DNA of 64,000 nt, from positions 1,342,880 to 1,406,879 of the forward strand of contig CATOSP010000002.1 of NCBI GenBank assembly GCA_951812625.1. The letters are read 5' to 3'. The translations under genes were made by a program, and so were the position numbers. The stretch is from an uncultured Dehalococcoidia bacterium (GTDB taxonomy: Bacteria; Chloroflexota; Dehalococcoidia; Lucifugimonadales; UBA3495). Shown piece after piece: positions 5,057-58,225 of the stretch. Under the pieces are notes generated by a model. The model was not told the origin of the DNA. It did not search any database and was given only the letters and a program-made list of their open reading frames with translations. The first letter of the stretch is position 1. Every line of letters begins with the position of its first letter.

Positions 5057-6703
5057 ATGAAGACGATTGACGCCATCTCGGAGATTTTGAAGAGGGAAGG
5101 GGTGGAGTACCTCAGTTGCTTCCCCACCACCCCGGTTATCGAGGCTGCTGCGGTGGCCGGTATCCGACCCATTATCTGCCGACAGGAGCGGGTGGGCGTT
5201 GGAATAGCCGACGGCTATAGCCGCGTGACCAACGGAGAGAAAATGGGCGTGTTCGCCATGCAGTACGGCCCCGGGGCCGAGAACGCCTATTCCGGCGTGG
5301 CGACGGCTTACTCGGACTCCACTCCGATGCTGCTGCTTCCCCTGGGGCATCCGCGGGAGCGACAGGGTATCCTCCCCCACTTCAACTCGATGACCAACTA
5401 CGCTGGGGTGACAAAGTACATCGAGCAGGTGAACACCGCCGACCGTACCTCCCAGGTGATGCGCCGGGCCTTTGCCGCGCTGCGCCAGGGCCGCTCCGGC
5501 CCGGTGATGGTTGAAATCCCCGCCGACATTGCGCTGGAGGACGTCTCAGAAGAGGACTTCTTCTACCAGCCCAGCAGGCAGGTGGCGGCCCAGGGGGACC
5601 CGAGGGACATCGAGGCCGCGGCCCGCGCCCTGTGCCAGGCCAGCCGCCCGGTAATCCACGCCGGACAGGGCGTTCTCTACGCCCAGGCCACCGATGAACT
5701 GGTGGAGCTGGCAGAGTTGCTCAATGTCCCGGTGATGACCACGCTGCTGGGGAAGAGCGCATTTCCCGAGGTACACCCCCTGGCCCTGGGAAGCGGGTCG
5801 GGGAGCATGTCGCGTCCCGTGTTCCATTTCATGAGCAATGCCGACCTGATCTTCGGCATCGGCTCCAGCTTTACCAAGCACGGCATGTCGATGAACTTGC
5901 CTCCCGGAAAGACGCTTATCCAGGCTACCAATGACTCCCGGGACATCAACAAGGACTACAACGTTGAGTATCCCATCGTCGGGGACGCGAAGCTGGTGCT
6001 GCGCCAGATGATTGAAGCCTGCAAAGAGATTGTGGGCAGCAGCCGGCAAGGCGGTGAGGGCGTCGCCAATGAAATCAACTCCCAGCGGGACGCATGGTTG
6101 GCCGACTGGGAGCACAAGCTTGGCAACAACGGAGCTCCGATCAACCCCTACCGGGTGATCCGGGACTTCATGCAGACGGTCCCGCCGGAGGACGCCATCG
6201 TAACCCACGATTCCGGGAGCCCGCGCGACCAGATCATGCCGTTCTACCGTTCCAACGGGCCACGCACCTACCTGGGTTGGGGAAAGTCCCACGGCCTGGG
6301 AACAGGACTGGGGTTGGTCATCGGAGCGAAGCTGGCCGCGCCGGAGAAGGTCTGCGTCAACTTCATGGGGGACGCCGCCTTCGGAATGACCGGCCTGGAC
6401 TTCGAGACAGCGGTCCGTTCCAACCTCCCGATTATCACGGTGGTCCTGAATAATTCCACGATGGCCGTGGAGACCAGGGCGATGGAAGACTCCCACCGTT
6501 TGTACAACAGCCGCGACTTGGGCGGCAATTACGCGGACATGGGCCGGGCAATGGGCGGCTACGCGGAGCGGGTCGAAGACCCGTCGGACGTGGCAGGGGC
6601 CTTCCAGCGCGCGCGCCGGGTAACTGAAGAGGAAGGCAAGGCAGTGCTGCTGGAGTTCATCACCAGCGCCGAGACAGAGACTTCCCACCGACGGGCATTC
6701 TAG
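5057..6703 (+). CDS. thiamine-diphosphate-dependent enzyme (acetolactate synthase/oxalyl-CoA decarboxylase-like)
   Basis: 548 residues, the standard length of the three-domain ThDP fold: Pyr domain (about 1-170), central domain (about 180-330) and PP domain (about 360-548). The catalytic Glu that activates the cofactor is Glu44 in CRQERVGVGIADGYSR. The metal/ThDP motif is GDAAFGM followed by VVLNN about 30 residues on. AGGAGG precedes the ATG by 8 nt. The family decarboxylates or ligates 2-oxo acids or acyl-CoAs. Downstream lie a small ferredoxin-fold protein and a CoA-transferase pair on the same strand. That order recalls oxalate catabolism (CoA transfer plus ThDP decarboxylase), but the substrate cannot be read from sequence. 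A paralog with altered active-site residues is at 56570-58225. Confidence 0.85.
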   Translation: MKTIDAISEILKREGVEYLSCFPTTPVIEAAAVAGIRPIICRQERVGVGIADGYSRVTNGEKMGVFAMQYGPGAENAYSGVATAYSDSTPMLLLPLGHPRERQGILPHFNSMTNYAGVTKYIEQVNTADRTSQVMRRAFAALRQGRSGPVMVEIPADIALEDVSEEDFFYQPSRQVAAQGDPRDIEAAARALCQASRPVIHAGQGVLYAQATDELVELAELLNVPVMTTLLGKSAFPEVHPLALGSGSGSMSRPVFHFMSNADLIFGIGSSFTKHGMSMNLPPGKTLIQATNDSRDINKDYNVEYPIVGDAKLVLRQMIEACKEIVGSSRQGGEGVANEINSQRDAWLADWEHKLGNNGAPINPYRVIRDFMQTVPPEDAIVTHDSGSPRDQIMPFYRSNGPRTYLGWGKSHGLGTGLGLVIGAKLAAPEKVCVNFMGDAAFGMTGLDFETAVRSNLPIITVVLNNSTMAVETRAMEDSHRLYNSRDLGGNYADMGRAMGGYAERVEDPSDVAGAFQRARRVTEEEGKAVLLEFITSAETETSHRRAF

Positions 6704-6753: not shown

Positions 6754-7116
6754 ATGGCGTTAAGCTCCAAGTACCTGTTCATAGCAAGCATGGACGTGGA
6801 CGCCGAGAAGGGTGACCTATTTGATGAGGTCTACGATACCGAGCATTGCCCGTTGCTGTCGGAGGTGCCCGGAGTGGTATCGGTGTCCCGGTTTGAGACC
6901 CAGCCCCTGAAGATGATCATGGGCGGGGAGACCAGGACGATCGTGGTTGAGAACGAACCCAAATATCATGCCCTGTACGAACTTGAAGACCCGGCGGTCC
7001 TGACGAGCAGGGAATGGGCCGACGCGGTGGACAGCGGCCGTTGGCCGGACCAGGTCAGGCCGTATACCAAGAACCGGCGGCACGTGCTGCTGCGGCTGAC
7101 CTATCCGGAGGGATAG
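6754..7116 (+). CDS. small ferredoxin-fold (dimeric alpha-beta barrel) protein, DUF4286/EthD-like
   Basis: 120 residues. The pattern YLFIASMDVD...DEVYDTEHCPLLSEVPGVVSVSRFE is typical of small dimeric alpha-beta barrel proteins (EthD, DUF4286, ABM), where a Tyr-x-x-x-His near residue 30 lies in the first helix. These are often accessory proteins or small enzymes in catabolic clusters. It follows the ThDP enzyme by 50 bp on the same strand and precedes the CoA-transferase pair, so it probably belongs to the same pathway. GAGG-type ribosome site a few bases upstream of ATG. No catalytic role can be assigned. Confidence 0.65.
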   Translation: MALSSKYLFIASMDVDAEKGDLFDEVYDTEHCPLLSEVPGVVSVSRFETQPLKMIMGGETRTIVVENEPKYHALYELEDPAVLTSREWADAVDSGRWPDQVRPYTKNRRHVLLRLTYPEG

Positions 7117-7337: not shown

Positions 7338-8537
7338 ATGTCCGCTGGAGCCCTGGAAGGGGTGAAGGTGCTTGACCTCACCCACCATATCGCCGGACCG
7401 TGGTGCACCAAGCTGATGGCCGACTATGGGGCCGAAGTCCTCAAGGTGGAGAGGCCCGGAGGAGACCCCGCCCGCCGGATGCCACCCTTCTTTCACGATG
7501 AGGTGGACGCCGAGAAGAGCCTCCTTTTCCATTATCTGAACACCAACAAGCGGGGCGTGACACTGAACCTGAAGGACCGGCGGGGCGTCCGGATGCTGAA
7601 GGAGTTGGCGGCGGACGCCGATATCCTGGTCGAGAACTTTTCCCCGAGGGTTATGCCGTCATTGGGGCTGGACTTCTCCGCAATGCACGAGACCAACCCG
7701 GCGCTGGTGATGGTTTCGATCTCCAATTTCGGACAGACCGGCCCCTACCGGGACTACCGAGCTACCGACATCGTTGAATACGCGCTGGGCGGGTTGATGT
7801 ACATTTTCGGGGCATACGACCGCGAACCGCTCAAACATGCCCTGCACCAGGCCCAATTCAAGGCAGGCACGGATGCCGCATCTGCTTCATTGATAGCCTT
7901 CTATCATCAACAACTCAGCGGACAGGGCCAGCAGGTAGACGTGTCAATACACGAGTGCGTGGCCTCGGGTCTGCGGGATGTGGTGAACAACTTCACCTAT
8001 ACCGGGGCGGTGCGGCGGCGGCAGCCCAACCACAGCGGGGACCTGACCCGGGTGCGCGCAACGTCAGACGGCTATATCCTGCCGAACCCGGGAGTCTCGG
8101 CAGGCATCAACTGGCAGCTCGTGGTTGACCATATGGGTGTGCCGCAACTGGACGACGAGAAGTTTTCCAGCGCCTCCGCCCGCCTGGTGAACGCCGAGGA
8201 ACTGGGTGAGATACTGGACACACACTTCCGTACGCAGCAGAAGGCTGAGGTGTTCCACGACGCCCACCGCCAGCGCTTTATCTACGGCATGATCCAGTCG
8301 CCGGAGGACGCCCTGTCCGATCCCCAGTTTGAGGCGCGCGGGTTCTTCGTAGACGTGGACCACCCGGCCACGGGCGTGGTCAAACATCCGGGGCCTCCTT
8401 TTCTGATGAACGGCACCCCCTGGCAGGTCCGTCGACCTGCCCCGACCCTGGGCCAGGACAATCAAGAGGTGCTCGGCCAACAACTGGGCAACAGCGATGG
8501 CGAACTTTCCCTCATGAGGGCTCTGGGAGTAATCTGA
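7338..8537 (+). CDS. class III (CaiB/BaiF) CoA-transferase, subunit A type, catalytic Asp replaced by Gln
   Basis: 399 residues, usual family length. N-terminal hallmark GVKVLDLTHHIAGPWCTKLM and KVERPGGDP are CoA-binding fold features; GQGQQVDVS is also typical. Family III transferases use an Asp about 22 residues before the TG.GQ..DVS motif to form an acyl anhydride. Here the aligned position (D...AG pattern) is Gln173 (QFKAG; codon 7854-7856). The next gene overlaps its stop (ATGA at 8534-8537 region) and keeps the Asp. So this is likely the non-catalytic or CoA-binding half of a heteromer, like BbsEF or SmtAB, which are known two-subunit class III enzymes. A paralog with the same Gln is at 24443-25849. 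The Gln assignment rests on manual alignment. Confidence 0.85.
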   Translation: MSAGALEGVKVLDLTHHIAGPWCTKLMADYGAEVLKVERPGGDPARRMPPFFHDEVDAEKSLLFHYLNTNKRGVTLNLKDRRGVRMLKELAADADILVENFSPRVMPSLGLDFSAMHETNPALVMVSISNFGQTGPYRDYRATDIVEYALGGLMYIFGAYDREPLKHALHQAQFKAGTDAASASLIAFYHQQLSGQGQQVDVSIHECVASGLRDVVNNFTYTGAVRRRQPNHSGDLTRVRATSDGYILPNPGVSAGINWQLVVDHMGVPQLDDEKFSSASARLVNAEELGEILDTHFRTQQKAEVFHDAHRQRFIYGMIQSPEDALSDPQFEARGFFVDVDHPATGVVKHPGPPFLMNGTPWQVRRPAPTLGQDNQEVLGQQLGNSDGELSLMRALGVI

Positions 8538-9961
8538 TGACTGATAACGTCGCCCCAAACCGCCTTGCCGGCCGGGGAGCGGCGGACAGGACCCGTCCCA
8601 CTATGGCAGGACCTCTGGCTGGCGTCCGAATCATAGAGATGGGGCAGCTCATAGCCATACCCTGGGCCATGAAAATGCTGGCGGACATGGGCGCACAGGT
8701 AATCCGATTCGAGTCCTGCCAGCGCATGGAAGGTTACCGGGGAGACTCCCTTTATAAGAACGACGTCGAGGGGGAGACCTGGAACCGGGGCGCAAACTTC
8801 TACGAGCACAACCGGAACAAGCTTGGAATCACCCTGGACCTGAGCAAGGCGCAGGGGCTGGACATACTCCGGGAGCTAATCGCGGTTGCCGACGTTTTCG
8901 CGGAGAACTTTACTCCGAGGGTCATCAAGAATTTCAAGCTGGAGTACGAGGACCTGCGGAGCATCAAGCCGGACATCATCATGGTCTCGTCCACCGGCTA
9001 CGGTTATACCGGGCCGTGGGCCAACTACGGGGCCACGGGTCCCGCTACCGAGGGAGCATCTGGGCTGGCCTACATGACGGGCTACGTGGACGGTCCGCCA
9101 GTGCTGCCAGAGATTCCGTACACCGACTACACGGCCGGGGAGCACACAGTCTTCGCGGTGATGGCCGCGCTGGTACACCGATTCCGTACTGGCAATGGAC
9201 AGTTCGTAGACGTGTCCCAAACGCAAACCGCGGCCGTCACGGTGCCGGAAGCCCTGATGGACTATGCCGCCAACAAGCGAATCGAGCCAAGAATGGGAAA
9301 CGGCCACTCCAGCATGGCCCCCCACGGATGCTATCCATGCCAAGGTGATGACCGGTGGATCACCATCGCGGTAGAGAACGATTCGCAGTGGCAGTCGCTG
9401 TGCCGGGTGATGGGACAGGACGAATGGGCTGGCGACTCCCGGTTTGCCGATGCCCTGAGCCGGTGGCGAAACCGCAGGGAACTGGACGAGCTTCTTGGGA
9501 AGGTTACCGCCGAATGGGACGCAATCCGGCTGACGCATGAACTCCAGGCAGCAGGCGTAGCGGCGGGTGCGGTCCTGGATGCGAAGGACATGCTCTTCAA
9601 CCCTCACCTGAAAGAGCGGGGTTTCTACGAGGTGATCTCACACCACCCCAGCACCGGGATGCCGCCGCTGCCCTATGCCAGCCGCCCCTGGAAACTGTCG
9701 CTGACGCCCTCCGTGGACCGGACAGCCGGGCCTCTCATGGGGGAGCACAACAGGCTAGTGCTGTCGGACCTGCTGGGTCACACTGTGGACGAACTGGCGG
9801 GCTGGGAAGAAGAGGGGATCATCGGGTACGCCCCGACCAACCCGCGAGCGGTGCAACGCCCCTCGCTGGACGAGCAGGTGCGCCAAGGCAGAATGCAACG
9901 CTATGAGACGGACTTCGAGGAGCAGGTGGCCAAGGCGTATCCACCACCGCAGGCGGGGTAG
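8537..9961 (+). CDS. class III (CaiB/BaiF) CoA-transferase, subunit B type, with catalytic Asp
   Basis: 474 residues; somewhat long owing to a 20-residue N-terminal extension, an insertion near residues 62-90 (with ETWNRG) and a C-terminal tail. Hallmarks: GVRIIEMGQLIAIPWAMKML, VDVSQ, and PHGCYPCQGDDRWITIA. The catalytic Asp is Asp197 in DYTAG, placed exactly like the family nucleophile. Its ATG overlaps the preceding stop codon (ATGA), so translation is coupled with subunit A and a heteromer is likely. The CoA-transfer substrates are unknown. The pairing resembles the second pair at 24443-27147, whose B member shares the inserted WNR motif and the APH..Y.C.GDDRW motif. Confidence 0.87.
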   Translation: MTDNVAPNRLAGRGAADRTRPTMAGPLAGVRIIEMGQLIAIPWAMKMLADMGAQVIRFESCQRMEGYRGDSLYKNDVEGETWNRGANFYEHNRNKLGITLDLSKAQGLDILRELIAVADVFAENFTPRVIKNFKLEYEDLRSIKPDIIMVSSTGYGYTGPWANYGATGPATEGASGLAYMTGYVDGPPVLPEIPYTDYTAGEHTVFAVMAALVHRFRTGNGQFVDVSQTQTAAVTVPEALMDYAANKRIEPRMGNGHSSMAPHGCYPCQGDDRWITIAVENDSQWQSLCRVMGQDEWAGDSRFADALSRWRNRRELDELLGKVTAEWDAIRLTHELQAAGVAAGAVLDAKDMLFNPHLKERGFYEVISHHPSTGMPPLPYASRPWKLSLTPSVDRTAGPLMGEHNRLVLSDLLGHTVDELAGWEEEGIIGYAPTNPRAVQRPSLDEQVRQGRMQRYETDFEEQVAKAYPPPQAG

Positions 9962-22048: not shown

Positions 22049-23149
22049 CTAGTTGTGGCAACCCCTGGCCTGGATGTCCCAGACGGCCTCAACCCTGCCG
22101 TTGCGGACCCCTACGAAGCGGTCCCAGCGGCTGACTGTCGCGTCCTGCTGCGAGGGGATGAGAGTTACCTGGTCTCCCACGTTCAGTGAGACACCTTCGC
22201 CGACCCGGAAGACCACATGGTCGGGGTCCATTGACTCGACCGTTACTCCGGGGCGGCCTTCCACCTCCGGCATACCTCGCAGGGTGGCGACGGTCTTCTG
22301 TCCGGCGTCCCCGACGGCAACGCCGGGTCGGGGAGCGCTTATCACCGTGGTCAGCACTTTCCCGGCGTAATGGAAATCGGTCATGTAGCCATATCCTGTT
22401 TCCATCACGAGGTAGCTGCCGCCCTGTATCTCGGTGACACCGGGAATCTCTCCGGCAACGTCGTAGCTCCAGGTCTCTCCCGTTGATACTATCTCAACCG
22501 GGATGCCCGCAGCCTCAATGGCGTCCTTGAGGTCTATGACCCCCTGAATGACCCGCCTCCCCTCTGTCACCCGGTCCTCCCGCTCCGGCATGGCAGGAAT
22601 GACCTGATGGCTCATGATTCCGCGGAAGGCCAGGCCCGGCATGGACTGGACCGCCTTGGCCAGTTCAACGCCCTGGGCTGCATCCTGAACGCCGCAACGC
22701 CGCAGACCGGTCTCCAACTCAATGACCACTCCTACGGTTACTCCCTGGGCGCTGGCTGCCCGAGACAAATCGCGGGCGTTGTCGGAATTATCACAGGCCA
22801 CCAGCATCTCCGCCTGCTGCGCTAGGGTGCACAGTCGCTCTATCTTCAGAGGCTCCCTGATCTCGCTGGTAATGAAGACGCTGGGGATTCCCCCATGGAC
22901 CATAACCTCCGCCTCGGAGACCTTGGCGGAGCAGACGCCTCCTATTGTGCCGCCCAGCCGCATCTGGCGGTGGGCCAGCGCCGGGGTCTTATGGTTCTTG
23001 CCGTGGGGACGGAGCTTGCTTGTCCGGCCTTCGTAGTAGGTGGCCATTACGTCCATGTTGTGGTCGAGGGCGTCCATGTCCAGGACCAGACAGGGTGTGT
23101 CAAGGTCTTCCACCAGAGTTCCAGGAGTCGGGCGGTAAAGCTGGGTCAT
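22049..23149 (-). CDS. D-threonine aldolase/alanine racemase N-domain-like PLP protein, Lys present
   Basis: 366 residues. D-threonine aldolase/D-serine dehydratase-like fold: TPG TLVEDLDTPCLVLDMDAL, RPHGKNHKTPA with the PLP-binding Lys51, VCSAKVSEAEVMV, LETGLRRCG and GGSYLVMETGYGY. N-terminal PLP barrel followed by C-terminal beta domain. In the family a metal-binding His-x-Asp/Cys lies near VPxHCDPT; here it reads PSQQDATV, so the His is Gln and the metal site looks altered. Likely acts on D-amino acids or beta-hydroxy amino acids, but activity is open. Downstream of a close tandem paralog with 59 bp between them; probably one operon. Confidence 0.82.
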   Translation of the reverse strand: MTQLYRPTPGTLVEDLDTPCLVLDMDALDHNMDVMATYYEGRTSKLRPHGKNHKTPALAHRQMRLGGTIGGVCSAKVSEAEVMVHGGIPSVFITSEIREPLKIERLCTLAQQAEMLVACDNSDNARDLSRAASAQGVTVGVVIELETGLRRCGVQDAAQGVELAKAVQSMPGLAFRGIMSHQVIPAMPEREDRVTEGRRVIQGVIDLKDAIEAAGIPVEIVSTGETWSYDVAGEIPGVTEIQGGSYLVMETGYGYMTDFHYAGKVLTTVISAPRPGVAVGDAGQKTVATLRGMPEVEGRPGVTVESMDPDHVVFRVGEGVSLNVGDQVTLIPSQQDATVSRWDRFVGVRNGRVEAVWDIQARGCHN

Positions 23150-23208: not shown

Positions 23209-24312
23209 TCAGGTGAACCTTCCCCGGGCGGCGATGGGCCAGTATCCTTCAAGCCTGCCATTGCGCACAGCCCGGATGTAATCGTACTGGTTGATGCAGA
23301 GGGCAAGGTCGTTTGGGACCAGCCAGGCTTTGTCCCCAGGGCGCAACTGTGTGATGGCGGACTCCTCAAGGTCCACCACGCCATGCTCGGCGCTGAAACG
23401 GTTGGCTGCCGCGCCGGGTACACCTTCCAGGACCGCCATTCCCCGGTCCGGGCCGGTGGCCTTGTGACCGGCGTCCAGCACGGCTGACGTGTCGATGGGA
23501 TGGCTGATTACGGAAGCCAGCACCTTAGCGGCTGGCCGGAACTCGGGCCTTAGCTGGCAGTATTTGAAGTCCATTAGAGGATAGGAGCCTGCCTGCACTT
23601 CTGTGATGCCTTCCACAGCAGCCGCAACGTTGTAGTTGTGAGTGCCGGCGACGCTGACGGTTCCGGACAACCCCTCCCGTTCCAGCAACTCGCGGGTGTC
23701 CAACGCGGGCTGCAGCTGCTGGCGCAGGTCGGCCTCCGTGGCTGCCTCGACCGGAGGTATGGCCATCACACCCTGGAATTCCAGCCCCGAGGAGCCCATG
23801 ATTTCCCTGGCCAACTCCACAGCAGCACCGCCTGGCATGACTCCGCAGCGTCCCAGACCGGCTTCCAACTCTACAAGGACACCGAGGGTCGCGCCAGCAG
23901 CGGTCGCTGCCTCTGACAGAGATGCCACGTTGCTCGAGGAGTCCACTGCCACCGAGATGCGGTTGGAGGCAGCGAGCGCGCACAGGCGCGCAATCTTCGA
24001 GCGGGTGACCAACTGGCTGGCGACCAGAATGGAAGAGAAACCGGCCTGGGCGAATACCTCGGCTTCCCCGACGCTGGTTACGGCGATACCCGTGGTCCGC
24101 GCATCGCCTCCTCCAAGAGCGTTGGCTTGAACATGGGCGATCTGTGGGCACTGGTGCGGAGTGACGAAGGGGCGGACGCCTGCCTTCGATCCGTCAAAGG
24201 CGGCCTGCAGCGTGCGTATGTTTTGCTCCATTACGTCCAGGTCCACGACCAGGGCGGGGGTGTCCAGCTCCTCGACCGGGGTCCCCGGCGGTTGGAAAAC
24301 GGGACGCTCCAT
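23209..24312 (-). CDS. D-threonine aldolase-like paralog lacking the PLP lysine
   Basis: 367 residues, 44% or so similar by eye to the neighbour at 22049-23149 and of equal length. TPVEELDTPALVVDLDVMEQ opens the barrel. At the position of the PLP lysine the sequence is RPFVTPHQCPQ: Thr51 replaces Lys51 and Gln54 the second Lys of KNHK. The codon at 24160-24162 is unambiguous. The C-terminal metal site reads VPNDLALC, with neither His nor Asp in place. So classical PLP aldolase or dehydratase activity is not expected. Possible roles are a non-catalytic partner of the neighbour or a new activity. GGAGGCAG lies upstream of the ATG. Divergent from the CoA-transferase pair across 130 bp. Confidence 0.82.
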   Translation of the reverse strand: MERPVFQPPGTPVEELDTPALVVDLDVMEQNIRTLQAAFDGSKAGVRPFVTPHQCPQIAHVQANALGGGDARTTGIAVTSVGEAEVFAQAGFSSILVASQLVTRSKIARLCALAASNRISVAVDSSSNVASLSEAATAAGATLGVLVELEAGLGRCGVMPGGAAVELAREIMGSSGLEFQGVMAIPPVEAATEADLRQQLQPALDTRELLEREGLSGTVSVAGTHNYNVAAAVEGITEVQAGSYPLMDFKYCQLRPEFRPAAKVLASVISHPIDTSAVLDAGHKATGPDRGMAVLEGVPGAAANRFSAEHGVVDLEESAITQLRPGDKAWLVPNDLALCINQYDYIRAVRNGRLEGYWPIAARGRFT

Positions 24313-24442
24313 AGCTGCCTCCTAGGGCCGGTGATAGTGTGCCGTAGCGTGTCGGATGACCCTTTCTCAGCCGGGTACGAACCAGCCTGACCGACGGAGG
24401 AAGAATATCACAAATGGCGGGCCTGGGCAGGGGAGTATGACG

Positions 24443-25849
24443 ATGCGCAATTGCAATTGGCAGGGGCCGATGGCACAATGGCTGTCGCGCCATTGGAGCA
24501 GAAGAACCGGAGGTCCAGCAGCGGAATTGGTCAATCAGCCGTCGAATATTGGAGAGGCAGCGGGGCTGCTTGAAGGCGTCAAAGTACTTGATCTGACCCA
24601 TTACCTTGCAGGACCTTACTGCACCAAACTTCTTTCGAGCTTGGGAGCAGAGGTCGTCAAGGTAGAGCGGCCCGGCGGCGACCCGATGCGGCGGTTTGGG
24701 CCACTGGTATCTACCATGACACTCCGCCAAGCCGAAGTGCAGACCCGAGATTCATCCGATCCCGATGATGGCAATGATGCCGGGGCCTGGTTCCTGTACC
24801 TCAATACCTCCAAGAAGAGCCTTACGCTGGACCTGAAGTCCGACAAGGGGAGAGATATAGCGCGCCAGTTGGCCGCATCCTCTGACATTGTGGTGGAAAA
24901 TTTCGCTCCCGGCGCCATGAACAAGCTGGGGCTGGGTTACGAGGAATTGCGGAAGACCAACCCGGCCCTGGTGATGACGTCGATCTCCAACTACGGGCAG
25001 ACCGGGCCATACCGGGACTGGAAAGCGACCGAAATCAATCTCTACGCCGCGGGCGGGTTGATGAACATCACCGGCGAGCCGGACATGCCACCGTTAAAGG
25101 AGGGAGCTCCGCTGGCCCAACTTGGCGCGGGGCAGGTCGCATTCGCAGCAACCATGGGCGCGCTGATGTACGCGGAAGAGACCGGCGAGGGGCAGCATAT
25201 CGACGTGTCCATCGCCGAGTACGCCACCAACATACTGGAAAACGCATTGATGCAGTACAGCTACTCGGGGATTGAGTTCACCCGGGTCGGCAACCGAGGG
25301 TATGGCCGCGCCGCCTGGGGAATCTATCCCTGCCAAGACGGGTATGTGGGCATAATTGCGGGCCCGGATACGCGCTGGCCTGCAGTGGCGGAAATCATGG
25401 AGCGGGAGGAGCTGGCCGATCCAAGATTCGAGTCCCGCAACGGGCGAATGATCAATGCTGATGAAGTGGACGCACTGATGCTGCCGTGGCTGCTGGACCA
25501 CGACAAGGTGGACATTTTCAAGGCAGGGCAGGACCGGGGCCTGGGATTCGCCTACGTTGCTACGATGCAAGACATACTGGATATGGAGCAACTGAACGCC
25601 CGAGATTATTTTGTCGAACTCGGAGACCCAGACCAGGGCGGGCTCATGTATCCGGGCGCTCCGATGAAGCTGTTCATAAATGGCGACGGAGACCGCAGCC
25701 TGAGCCCCAGACCGGGTAAGGGACAGGTGGGTTGGGTTTACCGGAGTGCGCCATCTCTGGGACAACACACCGAGGAAACGCTTTCCGGGAGGCTGGGCAT
25801 CAACGAGTCAGAAATTTCCGGTCTTCGCTCCCTGGGGGTGCTGGGATGA
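24443..25849 (+). CDS. class III (CaiB/BaiF) CoA-transferase, subunit A type, catalytic Asp replaced by Gln (pair 2)
   Basis: 468 residues if started at ATG 24443, which has GGGGAG 7 nt upstream; ATGs at 24437 and 24356 are alternatives. About 40 N-terminal residues lack similarity to the family. Hallmarks: GVKVLDLTHYLAGPYCTKLL, KVERPGGDP, YGQTGPYRDW, TGEGQHIDVS. The position of the catalytic Asp aligns to Gln226 (QLGAG; codon 25118-25120), as in the first pair's A member (Gln173). The next gene overlaps its stop by ATGA and keeps the Asp. Thus a second copy of the same arrangement, likely a heteromeric CoA-transferase with a different substrate. An enoyl-CoA hydratase follows. Confidence 0.85.
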   Translation: MRNCNWQGPMAQWLSRHWSRRTGGPAAELVNQPSNIGEAAGLLEGVKVLDLTHYLAGPYCTKLLSSLGAEVVKVERPGGDPMRRFGPLVSTMTLRQAEVQTRDSSDPDDGNDAGAWFLYLNTSKKSLTLDLKSDKGRDIARQLAASSDIVVENFAPGAMNKLGLGYEELRKTNPALVMTSISNYGQTGPYRDWKATEINLYAAGGLMNITGEPDMPPLKEGAPLAQLGAGQVAFAATMGALMYAEETGEGQHIDVSIAEYATNILENALMQYSYSGIEFTRVGNRGYGRAAWGIYPCQDGYVGIIAGPDTRWPAVAEIMEREELADPRFESRNGRMINADEVDALMLPWLLDHDKVDIFKAGQDRGLGFAYVATMQDILDMEQLNARDYFVELGDPDQGGLMYPGAPMKLFINGDGDRSLSPRPGKGQVGWVYRSAPSLGQHTEETLSGRLGINESEISGLRSLGVLG

Positions 25850-27147
25850 CCCCAAAGGGCGTCCCCTCCAACACACAGGCTCGGATGCCTCTCCGAAACT
25901 ACCGGATACTGGACCTTTCCCGTATCTGGGCCGGACCATACTGCACCAAGCTGCTGGCGGACATGGGAGCGGAAGTTGTCAAGCTCGAATCTTTGAGCGT
26001 GTACGACTCCCATCGCGGCCCGGTCAACCCTGCTCCGGGGATAGCGGCCTACCCTGATTCCGACCCCGGAGAGCGACCCTGGAACCGCAACGGCTGGTTC
26101 AACTGCCTCCACATGAGCAAGTATGGCATCAGCCTGGAAATAACCGGCGAAGAGGGCAAGCGTGTCTTCGACCAGTTGGTCTCGGTCAGCGACGTTCTGG
26201 TGGAGAACTTCCGGCAGGGCAGCCTGGCCCGGTTGGGATACGACTATGAAACCCTGCGCCGCCTCCGCCCCGACCTGATTTACGTTTCCATGCCCGCTTT
26301 CGGCAACAATGGTCCCTGGCAAAAGTACGTGGCCTACGGGATAGGGCAGGAACAACTCTCGGGAATGGCGCACATGACCGGGTATCCCGACGAAGGGCCC
26401 ATGAAGTCGGGCATCAACCACGGCGACCCGATCACCGGGGCCCATGCAGCCGGTGTAGTGCTCGCGGCGTTGCGATGGCGGAGACGCACGGGCAAAGGGA
26501 TGTTCATCGACGTGTCCCAGCAGGAGTCGGCGGTGGCCCTGATCGGGGGCGAGGTGCTGGCATACCAGATAACGGGCGAGGAACCGAAGCGACAGGGCAA
26601 CCACTCGCCGCACTTTGCACCGCACAACGCCTACCAGTGCGCCGGTGACGACAGGTGGGTGACCATCTCCGTTGCCACGGACGCGCAGTGGCGCGCGCTG
26701 GCGGGGATTGCAGGTGGAACATCGCTGTCAGAAGACGCCAGGTTTGCAACCGCGGCGGGTCGCCTGGAAAACCAGGAGGAGTTGGACCAGCTCATTTCCC
26801 GTTGGACGGCCGGCAAGGATGCCTACGCGGTGAGTCACCAACTGCAACAAGCCGGAGTGCCGTCCAGCCCGGTAATGCACGGCCCAGACCTTCTCGAAGA
26901 CCCGCACTACAGGGACAGGGGCACGTTCGTCAGCGTCAACCACGAACAAGTGGGGCCGAAGATGTATCCCGGCACCCCGTTCAGGATGAGCGCGACGCAG
27001 GGAGAAGTACGGTGGGCGGCCCCGGCCCTTGGGCAACACAACCGACTGGTGTACGGAGACCTGCTGGGTTTGGACGACGAAGAGATTGACGGGCTGGAGG
27101 AACGGGGAGTTATAGGGACCAAACCCACCGGCTCCCGCATAATCTGA
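25846..27147 (+). CDS. class III (CaiB/BaiF) CoA-transferase, subunit B type, with catalytic Asp (pair 2)
   Basis: 433 residues from ATG 25846, overlapping the stop of the A gene (ATGA 25846-25849). Hallmarks: NYRILDLSRIWAGPYCTKLL, an insertion with GERPWNRNGW (about 76-84), NFRQGSLARLGY, TGKGMFIDVSQ, APHNAYQCAGDDRW. Catalytic Asp is Asp194 in DPITG. Its insertion and APH..Y.C.GDDRW motif match the B member of pair 1 (8537-9961), so the two loci were copied as pairs. Predicted to transfer CoA between acids, substrate unknown. An enoyl-CoA hydratase is 60 bp downstream on the same strand, suggesting a beta-oxidation-like route. Confidence 0.87.
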   Translation: MTPKGVPSNTQARMPLRNYRILDLSRIWAGPYCTKLLADMGAEVVKLESLSVYDSHRGPVNPAPGIAAYPDSDPGERPWNRNGWFNCLHMSKYGISLEITGEEGKRVFDQLVSVSDVLVENFRQGSLARLGYDYETLRRLRPDLIYVSMPAFGNNGPWQKYVAYGIGQEQLSGMAHMTGYPDEGPMKSGINHGDPITGAHAAGVVLAALRWRRRTGKGMFIDVSQQESAVALIGGEVLAYQITGEEPKRQGNHSPHFAPHNAYQCAGDDRWVTISVATDAQWRALAGIAGGTSLSEDARFATAAGRLENQEELDQLISRWTAGKDAYAVSHQLQQAGVPSSPVMHGPDLLEDPHYRDRGTFVSVNHEQVGPKMYPGTPFRMSATQGEVRWAAPALGQHNRLVYGDLLGLDDEEIDGLEERGVIGTKPTGSRII

Positions 27148-56569: not shown

Positions 56570-58225
56570 ATGACTATAAGCGTGGGCACCGGAATCGCTC
56601 GGGTATTGAAGCAGGAAGGGGTGGAGTGGGTCTCCACTTTCCCGGTCTGCCGGGTCAACAATTCCCTTGGCCGGGAGGGGATACCGATGGTGATGATGCG
56701 GGACGACCGCTATGCGGTTGCCTTGGCAGATGCCTACTCGCGTATCAACGCGGGATCGCCCATCGGAGTGGCTACCTTCCAGGGAGGCGTCAACGCCGCG
56801 GGTTTGCAGGTCGCCTATGCGGGTATGGCCCAGGCATATGAGGACGGCTCCCCCGTGTTGTGCATCACCGACGGTGTGCCCATTGGCGGGACCGAGAACA
56901 GTCAGTTCGACGTCACGACCAGCCTGAAGACGGTGTCCAAGTGGTACGGCTATCTGGACCGGCCGGAGCGGCTGCACGAGTTCATGCGCCGCGCCTTCAC
57001 AATGCTGCGGTCTGGCAGGCCCGGCCCCGTGGTGCTGGCCATTCCAGACCCCGACGCCCTGATCGACGAGACTGCTGACCCCTACATGCCGGTCAAGGCA
57101 TGGAAGTCGCTCCCCGACCCCGCCGACGTTTCTGCTGCGGTGGACTTGTTGCTGGAGGCCAGGGACCCCCTGATTTACGCTGGTGAAGGCGTCATATACG
57201 CAGGGGCGTCGGACCAACTGAAGTCATTTGCCGAGTTGGCCAACTCTCCGGTAATTACGACGCTGAAGGCCAAGGGCGCACTCCCGGAAGACCATCCCCT
57301 GTTCGTCGGGGTCAGGGGCGGTCAGGTGGACCACTACCTGAGCAAGTGCGACCTGCTGCTGGCGGTCGGCTCCAGCCTCTCGCCGGGCCGGTTCAGCCAC
57401 GCCATACCAAACGCTGTGGCGAAGAAGATTATCCACTGCAATGTGGACGAACTGCACGTCAACAAGGCGTATCCCACGTCCGTTGCATTGATAGGCGACG
57501 CCCGGTTCTCCCTCGAAGCCCTGGAGAAGACGCTATCAGATAAGACCGGGGGCAACGGCAGGGATCCGGGAAGCGTGATGGCGGAAGTCAGGGCGGCGCG
57601 AGATGAGGCGTTGGCCCAGTACAAGGAGGCGATGGCGTCCACCGACACGCCGATCAACCCCTATCGCGTCTACGCCGGGCTTATGGAAGTGCTCGACCCG
57701 CTCAAGTCCTTTGTCACCCACGAGTCGGGGAACACCAGAGACCAGTTGAGCACGGTGTACGACACACTGATACCTCGCGGGTTCCTGGGATGGGGGAATG
57801 TATCTTCCCTGGGGTTCAGCCTTGCGGCGACCATCGCCGCCCGGATTTCATTCCCGGACAGGCACTGCGTGGCCGTTACCGGGGAGGCTGGCCTTGGCTA
57901 CATGATGGGCAACTTGGAAGTGCCGTTGCGCCAGAATTTGGGGATTACTATCGCCCACGTTAGCAACGGTGGATTTGCCGGTTACGGGCCGGGCTTCTGG
58001 GGAGACGGCCATGATCCATTCACCCACCGGGTGCTTGGGTATGAGGATGTGGACATGTCCAGGGTTATCGGCGAGCTGGGCTACCACACCGAGCGGGTGA
58101 CGGAACCGGCGGATGTGGGTCCGGCCCTGAACCGCGCCCTGGCCGCCAACGATTCCAACCAGCCTTCCTACATCGAGTTCGTTTGCAGCCAGTACCCCAT
58201 CTACGGCGGTTGGGTCGGCAGATAG
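56570..58225 (+). CDS. ThDP-dependent enzyme-like protein with altered active-site residues
   Basis: 551 residues, full three-domain ThDP layout, paralog of the 5057-6703 enzyme. GGAGG lies 7-8 nt before ATG. At the place of the catalytic Glu (Glu44 in the paralog) it has Asp46 in MMRDDRYAVALADAYSR. The cofactor-metal motif GDG...NN reads GEAGLGYMM ... AHVSNGG, so Asp is Glu and the last Asn-Asn is Asn-Gly. Enzyme changes of this kind occur in a few ThDP proteins, but loss of both strongly suggests different cofactor handling or inactive state. Neighbours: MFS transporter (convergent) and family-U gene upstream. Substrate unknown. Confidence 0.82.
   Translation: MTISVGTGIARVLKQEGVEWVSTFPVCRVNNSLGREGIPMVMMRDDRYAVALADAYSRINAGSPIGVATFQGGVNAAGLQVAYAGMAQAYEDGSPVLCITDGVPIGGTENSQFDVTTSLKTVSKWYGYLDRPERLHEFMRRAFTMLRSGRPGPVVLAIPDPDALIDETADPYMPVKAWKSLPDPADVSAAVDLLLEARDPLIYAGEGVIYAGASDQLKSFAELANSPVITTLKAKGALPEDHPLFVGVRGGQVDHYLSKCDLLLAVGSSLSPGRFSHAIPNAVAKKIIHCNVDELHVNKAYPTSVALIGDARFSLEALEKTLSDKTGGNGRDPGSVMAEVRAARDEALAQYKEAMASTDTPINPYRVYAGLMEVLDPLKSFVTHESGNTRDQLSTVYDTLIPRGFLGWGNVSSLGFSLAATIAARISFPDRHCVAVTGEAGLGYMMGNLEVPLRQNLGITIAHVSNGGFAGYGPGFWGDGHDPFTHRVLGYEDVDMSRVIGELGYHTERVTEPADVGPALNRALAANDSNQPSYIEFVCSQYPIYGGWVGR

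Follow-up and report, generated by a model that had tools for sequence, protein, structure and literature searches.

Two adjoining genes of the family III CoA-transferases (Pfam PF02515) on the forward strand of the window, i.e., the whole 64,000-nucleotide stretch analysed here, raise the question of what a member of this family does without its catalytic aspartate, and whether it forms a single enzyme with the Asp-bearing protein encoded next to it. In family III chemistry, the aspartate attacks an acyl-CoA to give an acyl-aspartyl anhydride, which is turned into an aspartyl-CoA thioester, from which CoA is passed on to the acceptor acid. The Asp-less protein is subunit A (positions 7338–8537, 399 aa) and the Asp-bearing one is subunit B (8537–9961, 474 aa as listed); both cover profile positions 1–366 of PF02515, with 318 bits for A and 347 bits for B at a cut-off of 23.3, and they are 29% identical to each other, while the cut-off of no named NCBIfam CoA-transferase model is passed by either. 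A owes its place in the family to descent and would not count as an enzyme in its own right. It is very likely that A and B together make up one BbsEF-like enzyme, in which Asp197 of B is the predicted CoA carrier and A, with Gln173 at the corresponding site, would be the non-catalytic partner.

The two sites can be recognized next to a common motif, as HQAQFKAGTDAAS precedes SGQGQQVDVS in A and PYTDYTAGEHT precedes TGNGQFVDVS in B. The sequence-only reading had set Gln173 of A (codon CAA, 7854–7856) against Asp197 of B (codon GAC, 9125–9127), and this placement is upheld by a MAFFT alignment of four reference chains with all 50 family III domains or fragments in this genome, with which pairwise HMMER alignments to solved structures concur; it was also checked whether a proper alignment brings an aspartate of A to that position, and the residue found there by MAFFT is Gln173. 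Gln173 is invariant in 121/121 rows (A and 120 listed of 7,244 homologues, 68–99% identity), as are His167, Gln171, and Gly177 of A in the same rows, and the predicted nucleophile Asp197 is likewise invariant in the 121 rows for B (B and 120 listed of 1,615 homologues). A sequencing error or gene decay at Gln173, to which a practically negligible probability is given, is contradicted by this 121/121 invariance, which extends to homologues of 68–77% identity, and by the intact frame; the invariance thus speaks against any recent decay of A. A catalytic residue that was lost, at a position that was then frozen as another residue, points to a role that has been kept.

Such a role might also be catalytic, with working sites in both subunits, if A relied on a carboxylate that had moved elsewhere, or if Gln173 or His167 served another chemistry. 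This alternative can draw on the invariance of His167, Gln171, and Gln173 and on Asp54, Asp214, and Asp294, each present in 121/121 rows (A and 120 listed homologues), but it is considered very improbable, for the residue at the Asp site varies freely among the A subfamilies, being Gln, Leu, Trp, Tyr, Cys, His, Glu, Ser, or Gly in the Asp-less members of this genome, and, although Asp54 is common in the A clade described below, Asp214 and Asp294 lack such conservation there. A displaced carboxylate was looked for in the vicinity of Gln173, at residues 166–189 of A, and rejected, since no conserved one occurs there; the sole aspartate of this segment, Asp179, is Asp in 78/121 rows and Asn in 43/121.

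The named homologues of A and B belong nearly all to metagenome genomes labelled Chloroflexota, Dehalococcoidia, or SAR202 cluster, with one labelled Acidobacteriota; the source bacterium is therefore probably SAR202-like (marine SAR202 group). Among 197 genomes drawn evenly across the class, near orthologues of A (E 1e-130) were found in this genome alone, and among the nearest relatives an A match of at least 56% identity occurs in 15 of 39 other genomes.

The arrangement of the two genes had been described as a coupled ATGA overlap, which is wrong in detail: the junction is TGATG (8535–8539), in which a single base is common to the stop codon of A (8535–8537) and the listed start codon of B (8537–8539), not the classical four-base ATGA. 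Moreover, the true start of B may be the ATG at 8603, because 97 of the 121 rows of the B alignment have their N-terminus exactly at the position of B-Met23; B would then have 452 aa, and the intergenic gap would be 65 bases. The spacing of the A/B junction is variable among the 15 junctions compared, and the order of the genes is variable as well, the 16 A/B-clade pairs in this genome comprising 12 with A first and 4 with B first. B adjoins A in all 18 relative loci, of which 15 are orthologous (56–75% identity) and 3 are more distant (49–54%).

The window lies at C2:1342880-1406879 of a 4.03 Mb, five-contig genome, whose 50 matches to PF02515, four of them in the window, follow a simple rule. 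A pair was defined, by hand after inspection of the data, as two domains fused in one frame, or two on the same strand whose profile matches are separated by less than 2 kb, the widest accepted gap being 1,991 bases (L046). On this definition, the genome has 18 pairs, of which 14 are encoded by neighbouring genes and 4 are in-frame fusions, and exactly one Asp is present in each (18/18); the 13 single genes (two incomplete) all carry Asp. In four related genomes from the same family or order (G013, G026, G028, and G037), one Asp is found in 29/30 pairs and Asp is present in 38/39 singles, which brings the five genomes combined to 47/48 pairs and 51/52 singles. Viewed by domain, the nucleophile is absent from 50/148 family III domains, and 49 of these 50 adjoin or are fused to a second family III domain. 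The excess of Asp-less domains in pairs (49/96) over singles (1/52) corresponds to a Fisher p of 7e-11, a value that is weakened because kinship is ignored and just two changes on the tree are needed to account for the Asp-less state.

Both exceptions to the rule come from G028. One is a Phe/Asn pair (L159), in which a B-type domain with Asn for the catalytic Asp (L159:8961-10247) stands beside a Phe-type A, without Asp at the expected position; the other is a lone Gln-type gene (L151), at a distance of 12 kb from a gene (L152) that resembles the B of the second pair in the window. Several scoring decisions enter these counts. In L161, a gap of 2,277 bases separates two Asp genes on the same strand, which were scored as singles and would make the tally 47/49 if taken as a pair; also scored as singles were an Asp gene directly beside a fused pair (in each of L148 and L159) and two opposite-strand Asp genes (L189). 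Four rows with TDF or SDF (L180, L198, L203, and the second domain of L148) were scored as Asp-bearing, as they show the same one-column indel shift owing to which the BbsF row displays His at the Asp column of the 50-domain MAFFT alignment; rows with a gap at this column (the first domain of L157 and the second of L165) were scored as Asp-less. Three pieces, a C-terminal one in L033, one of 37 positions in G026, and a split one in G028, were not counted as separate genes.

The rule bears directly on the possibility that B is a homodimer on its own and that A is an Asp-less protein with a task apart from B, such as the binding of acyl-CoA or some other reaction, and is only co-expressed with it. 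This possibility agrees with the fact that most known solved structures of the family are homodimers, and A does retain residues conserved in both clades in addition to its own invariant His167, Gln171, and Gln173. Asp-less genes stand alone, however, in just 1/52 single-gene cases, and the descent of the two subunits and the fused forms described below also count against this possibility, which is held to be distinctly unlikely.

In a tree of 51 rows, from which three were omitted (two L033 pieces and one partial L056), A-type and B-type rows, 17 of each, separate into an A clade and a B clade, and the two chains of PDB 9fn0, both named 'Subunit of Benzylsuccinate CoA-transferase', are divided between these, chain A grouping with the A-type rows and chain B with the B-type rows. 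We take chain A to be BbsE and chain B to be BbsF. Both clades persist when the 30 alignment columns around the Asp are removed, with a bootstrap of 100 for each and SH-aLRT of 99–100. Furthermore, the distance matrices of A and B co-vary (r 0.79 over 17 pairs, 0/20,000 permutations), and they still do so after near-copies are collapsed (r 0.50 over 15 pairs, 1/20,000 permutations), as would be expected if the partners evolve together; co-variation of this kind and the fact that BbsEF, with one chain in each of these clades, forms a complex (PDB 9fn0) both speak against B acting by itself.

Outside the A and B clades lie two fused double family III proteins (L054:3927-6227 and L057:4170-6644), with Ser in the first domain and Asp in the second. 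Because they fall outside both clades, this one-Asp layout seems to have arisen in a second lineage as well. Similar Ser/Asp layouts are also present in L163, L166, L182, and L197, and the fused Ser/Asp proteins of L054 and L057 presumably resemble DddD.

A sister pair of the Trp type was followed by using a fused protein of this genome (C2:1332500-1335058) as the query, which retrieved relatives at 41 loci in named genomes, 37 of which have both residues readable (L124, L127, L144, and L145 were omitted, as both residues are not visible there). The two domains are encoded in one fused frame in 21/37 loci and by two genes in 16/37. The B-type domain carries Asp in 35/37 and Asn in 2/37 (L106, L122), and the A-type domain never carries Asp, with Trp in 36/37 and His in 1/37. 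Parts that are joined in some genomes and apart in others are classical evidence of a physical partnership, which here would apply to the sister pair and not to A-B itself; the fusion of the related pair in 21 loci also counts against a B that dimerizes without A. Two further observations were made at these loci: the first domains of L106 and L122 are B-type with Asn in fused Trp-type pairs that have no Asp at the expected position, and, by label, the Trp-type pair is fused in 17/21 readable Chloroflexota/Dehalococcoidia loci and split in 12/16 Proteobacteria loci (L106–L146).

A BbsEF-like heteromer in which one subunit is non-catalytic, as first put forward by the sequence-only reading, is the best reading of the A-B pair in view of the clades shared with the 9fn0 chains, the D178 adduct of BbsEF, the 47/48 pairs, and the fused and split forms of the sister pair. 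In such an enzyme, the donor acyl-CoA would be attacked by Asp197 of B; the resulting acyl-aspartyl anhydride would give way to an aspartyl-CoA thioester, which would hand its CoA to the acceptor acid. In mesaconyl-CoA transferase (PMC9196870), the subunits interlock, the pocket is situated where the large domain of one subunit meets the small domain of its partner, and the nucleophile is proposed to be Asp165; from this inter-subunit pocket, we infer that an A-B dimer would have one productive pocket, composed of the large domain of B and the small domain of A, and a second, Asp-less pocket, composed of the large domain of A and the small domain of B. A would be retained for completing and shaping the pocket of B. 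AlphaFold2 (AF2) models of A (pLDDT 73, pTM 0.70) and of a fused sister pair (19 rows; pLDDT 70, pTM 0.73) are of middling confidence and were left unused for residue placement.

Gly31, Ala32, Lys36, Glu38, Arg46, Asn68, and Lys71 of A are common to most or all A and B rows, so that the capacity to bind CoA may have been preserved in A's own pocket. On account of these shared residues and this possible binding, a wider and tentative reading, for which the chances are rather small, regards the A clade as an ancient general lineage of pseudo-transferases, whose Asp-less pocket would hold a CoA ester or acid and tune specificity, and the A-B pairs as a module that multiplies the CoA-transfer reactions of SAR202. 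The features invoked for such a role in specificity are the residue that occupies the former nucleophile site, which is specific to each subfamily and is Gln173 in this one, and the invariant His167 and Gln171.

As for the reaction served by the A-B enzyme, the gene neighbourhood offers a few clues. Upstream on the same strand lie a ThDP enzyme of the PRK06154 family (5057–6703; NF004807, 750 bits at a cut-off of 607) and a 120-aa protein without a Pfam or NCBIfam match (6754–7116). The ThDP gene is near A-B in 13/18 relative loci, on the opposite strand in 4 of these 13 (L096, L097, L098, and L101), and the small gene in 11/18, all of them within the 15 orthologous loci; both are conserved neighbours, and the ThDP enzyme has a presumed link to the pathway of the pair. 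Some relatives add genes for an acyl-CoA dehydrogenase (L094, L100), an AMP-binding ligase (L094, L101), and a ketopantoate-reductase-like protein (L094, L095), as read from ten hand-chosen proteins of six loci. Because of the ThDP enzyme and, in some relatives, the acyl-CoA dehydrogenase, acyl-CoA ligase, and ketopantoate-reductase-like genes, the neighbourhood suggests, as a guess, that A-B takes part in the catabolism of a 2-oxo, 2-hydroxy, or branched acid. LeuD and LeuC lie downstream of A-B on the opposite strand, with the same families in L094, and these may be ordinary leucine genes. Benzylsuccinate was considered as a substrate and is unlikely by gene context, the neighbours being the ThDP enzyme, the small protein, and LeuCD and not a bbs operon; among the neighbours read, no bbs-type or bss-type gene was found by family.

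Elsewhere in the window, a second ThDP enzyme (56570–58225) is related to that at 5057–6703 (311 bits). The second pair of the window is also on the forward strand, with an A-type protein bearing Gln at the Asp position (24356–25849) and a B-type protein bearing Asp (25732–27147), both assigned by alignment and tree. This second pair (24356–27147) adjoins two opposite-strand genes, 22049–23149 and 23209–24312, with alanine-racemase-N and D-serine-dehydratase domains.

The abundance of such genes has a precedent. In SAR202, the CoA-transferase III family is prominently expanded and annotated gene by gene; five single-cell genomes contain 62 CaiB/BaiF-type proteins that belong to one Sfam family (PMC5395668). 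The gene family and the kind of organism are the same as here, and the passages on this expansion mention neither pairing nor loss of the Asp. The term CoA-transferase, with or without the hyphen, does not occur in the main text of a later SAR202 pangenome paper (PMC6946804). The pairing rule and the A/B clade split were not met with in the open-licence papers searched, and novelty is not claimed for them; the A-B pair is a new case of an enzyme of the BbsEF kind, and the CaiB/BaiF expansion in SAR202 is already in print. If the heteromeric reading of A-B is true, Asp-less and Asp-bearing neighbours should be treated as two-subunit enzymes in annotation and in assays, and the split into A and B clades would be a simple sequence rule for the choice of partner.

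Among known enzymes, SUGCT and the formyl-CoA transferases are homomeric, and SmtAB, the succinyl-CoA:malate CoA-transferase of Chloroflexus, which the sequence-only reading had invoked along with BbsEF, is a two-subunit family III enzyme. Human SUGCT (9br6, 9br7) and the formyl-CoA transferases share the fold and family of A, but these enzymes have the Asp, as seen in the alignment row of SUGCT, and A does not. SUGCT is nonetheless the top PDB match of A (191 bits, vs 183 bits for BbsE), with 9fn0 chain A in third place, and a fold search with the model of A also ranks SUGCT above BbsEF, a result that is non-discriminating. For B, on the other hand, the top PDB match is 9fn0 chain B (233 bits). 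The closest parallel to the A-B pair is BbsEF, the succinyl-CoA:(R)-benzylsuccinate CoA-transferase of the toluene pathway (PDB 9fn0, 9fol, and 9fun), which likewise consists of two family III chains. The title of 9fol names a 'D178-CoA adduct', and residue 178 was placed in chain B by counting on the printed alignment; this Asp178 aligns with Asp197 of B, and Tyr171 of chain A stands opposite Gln173 of A, so that the two systems differ in having Gln in A where BbsE has Tyr. In both, two family III chains, one with and one without the Asp, stand together, in the window as neighbouring genes, and A shares common descent with BbsE, as B does with BbsF (bootstrap 100).
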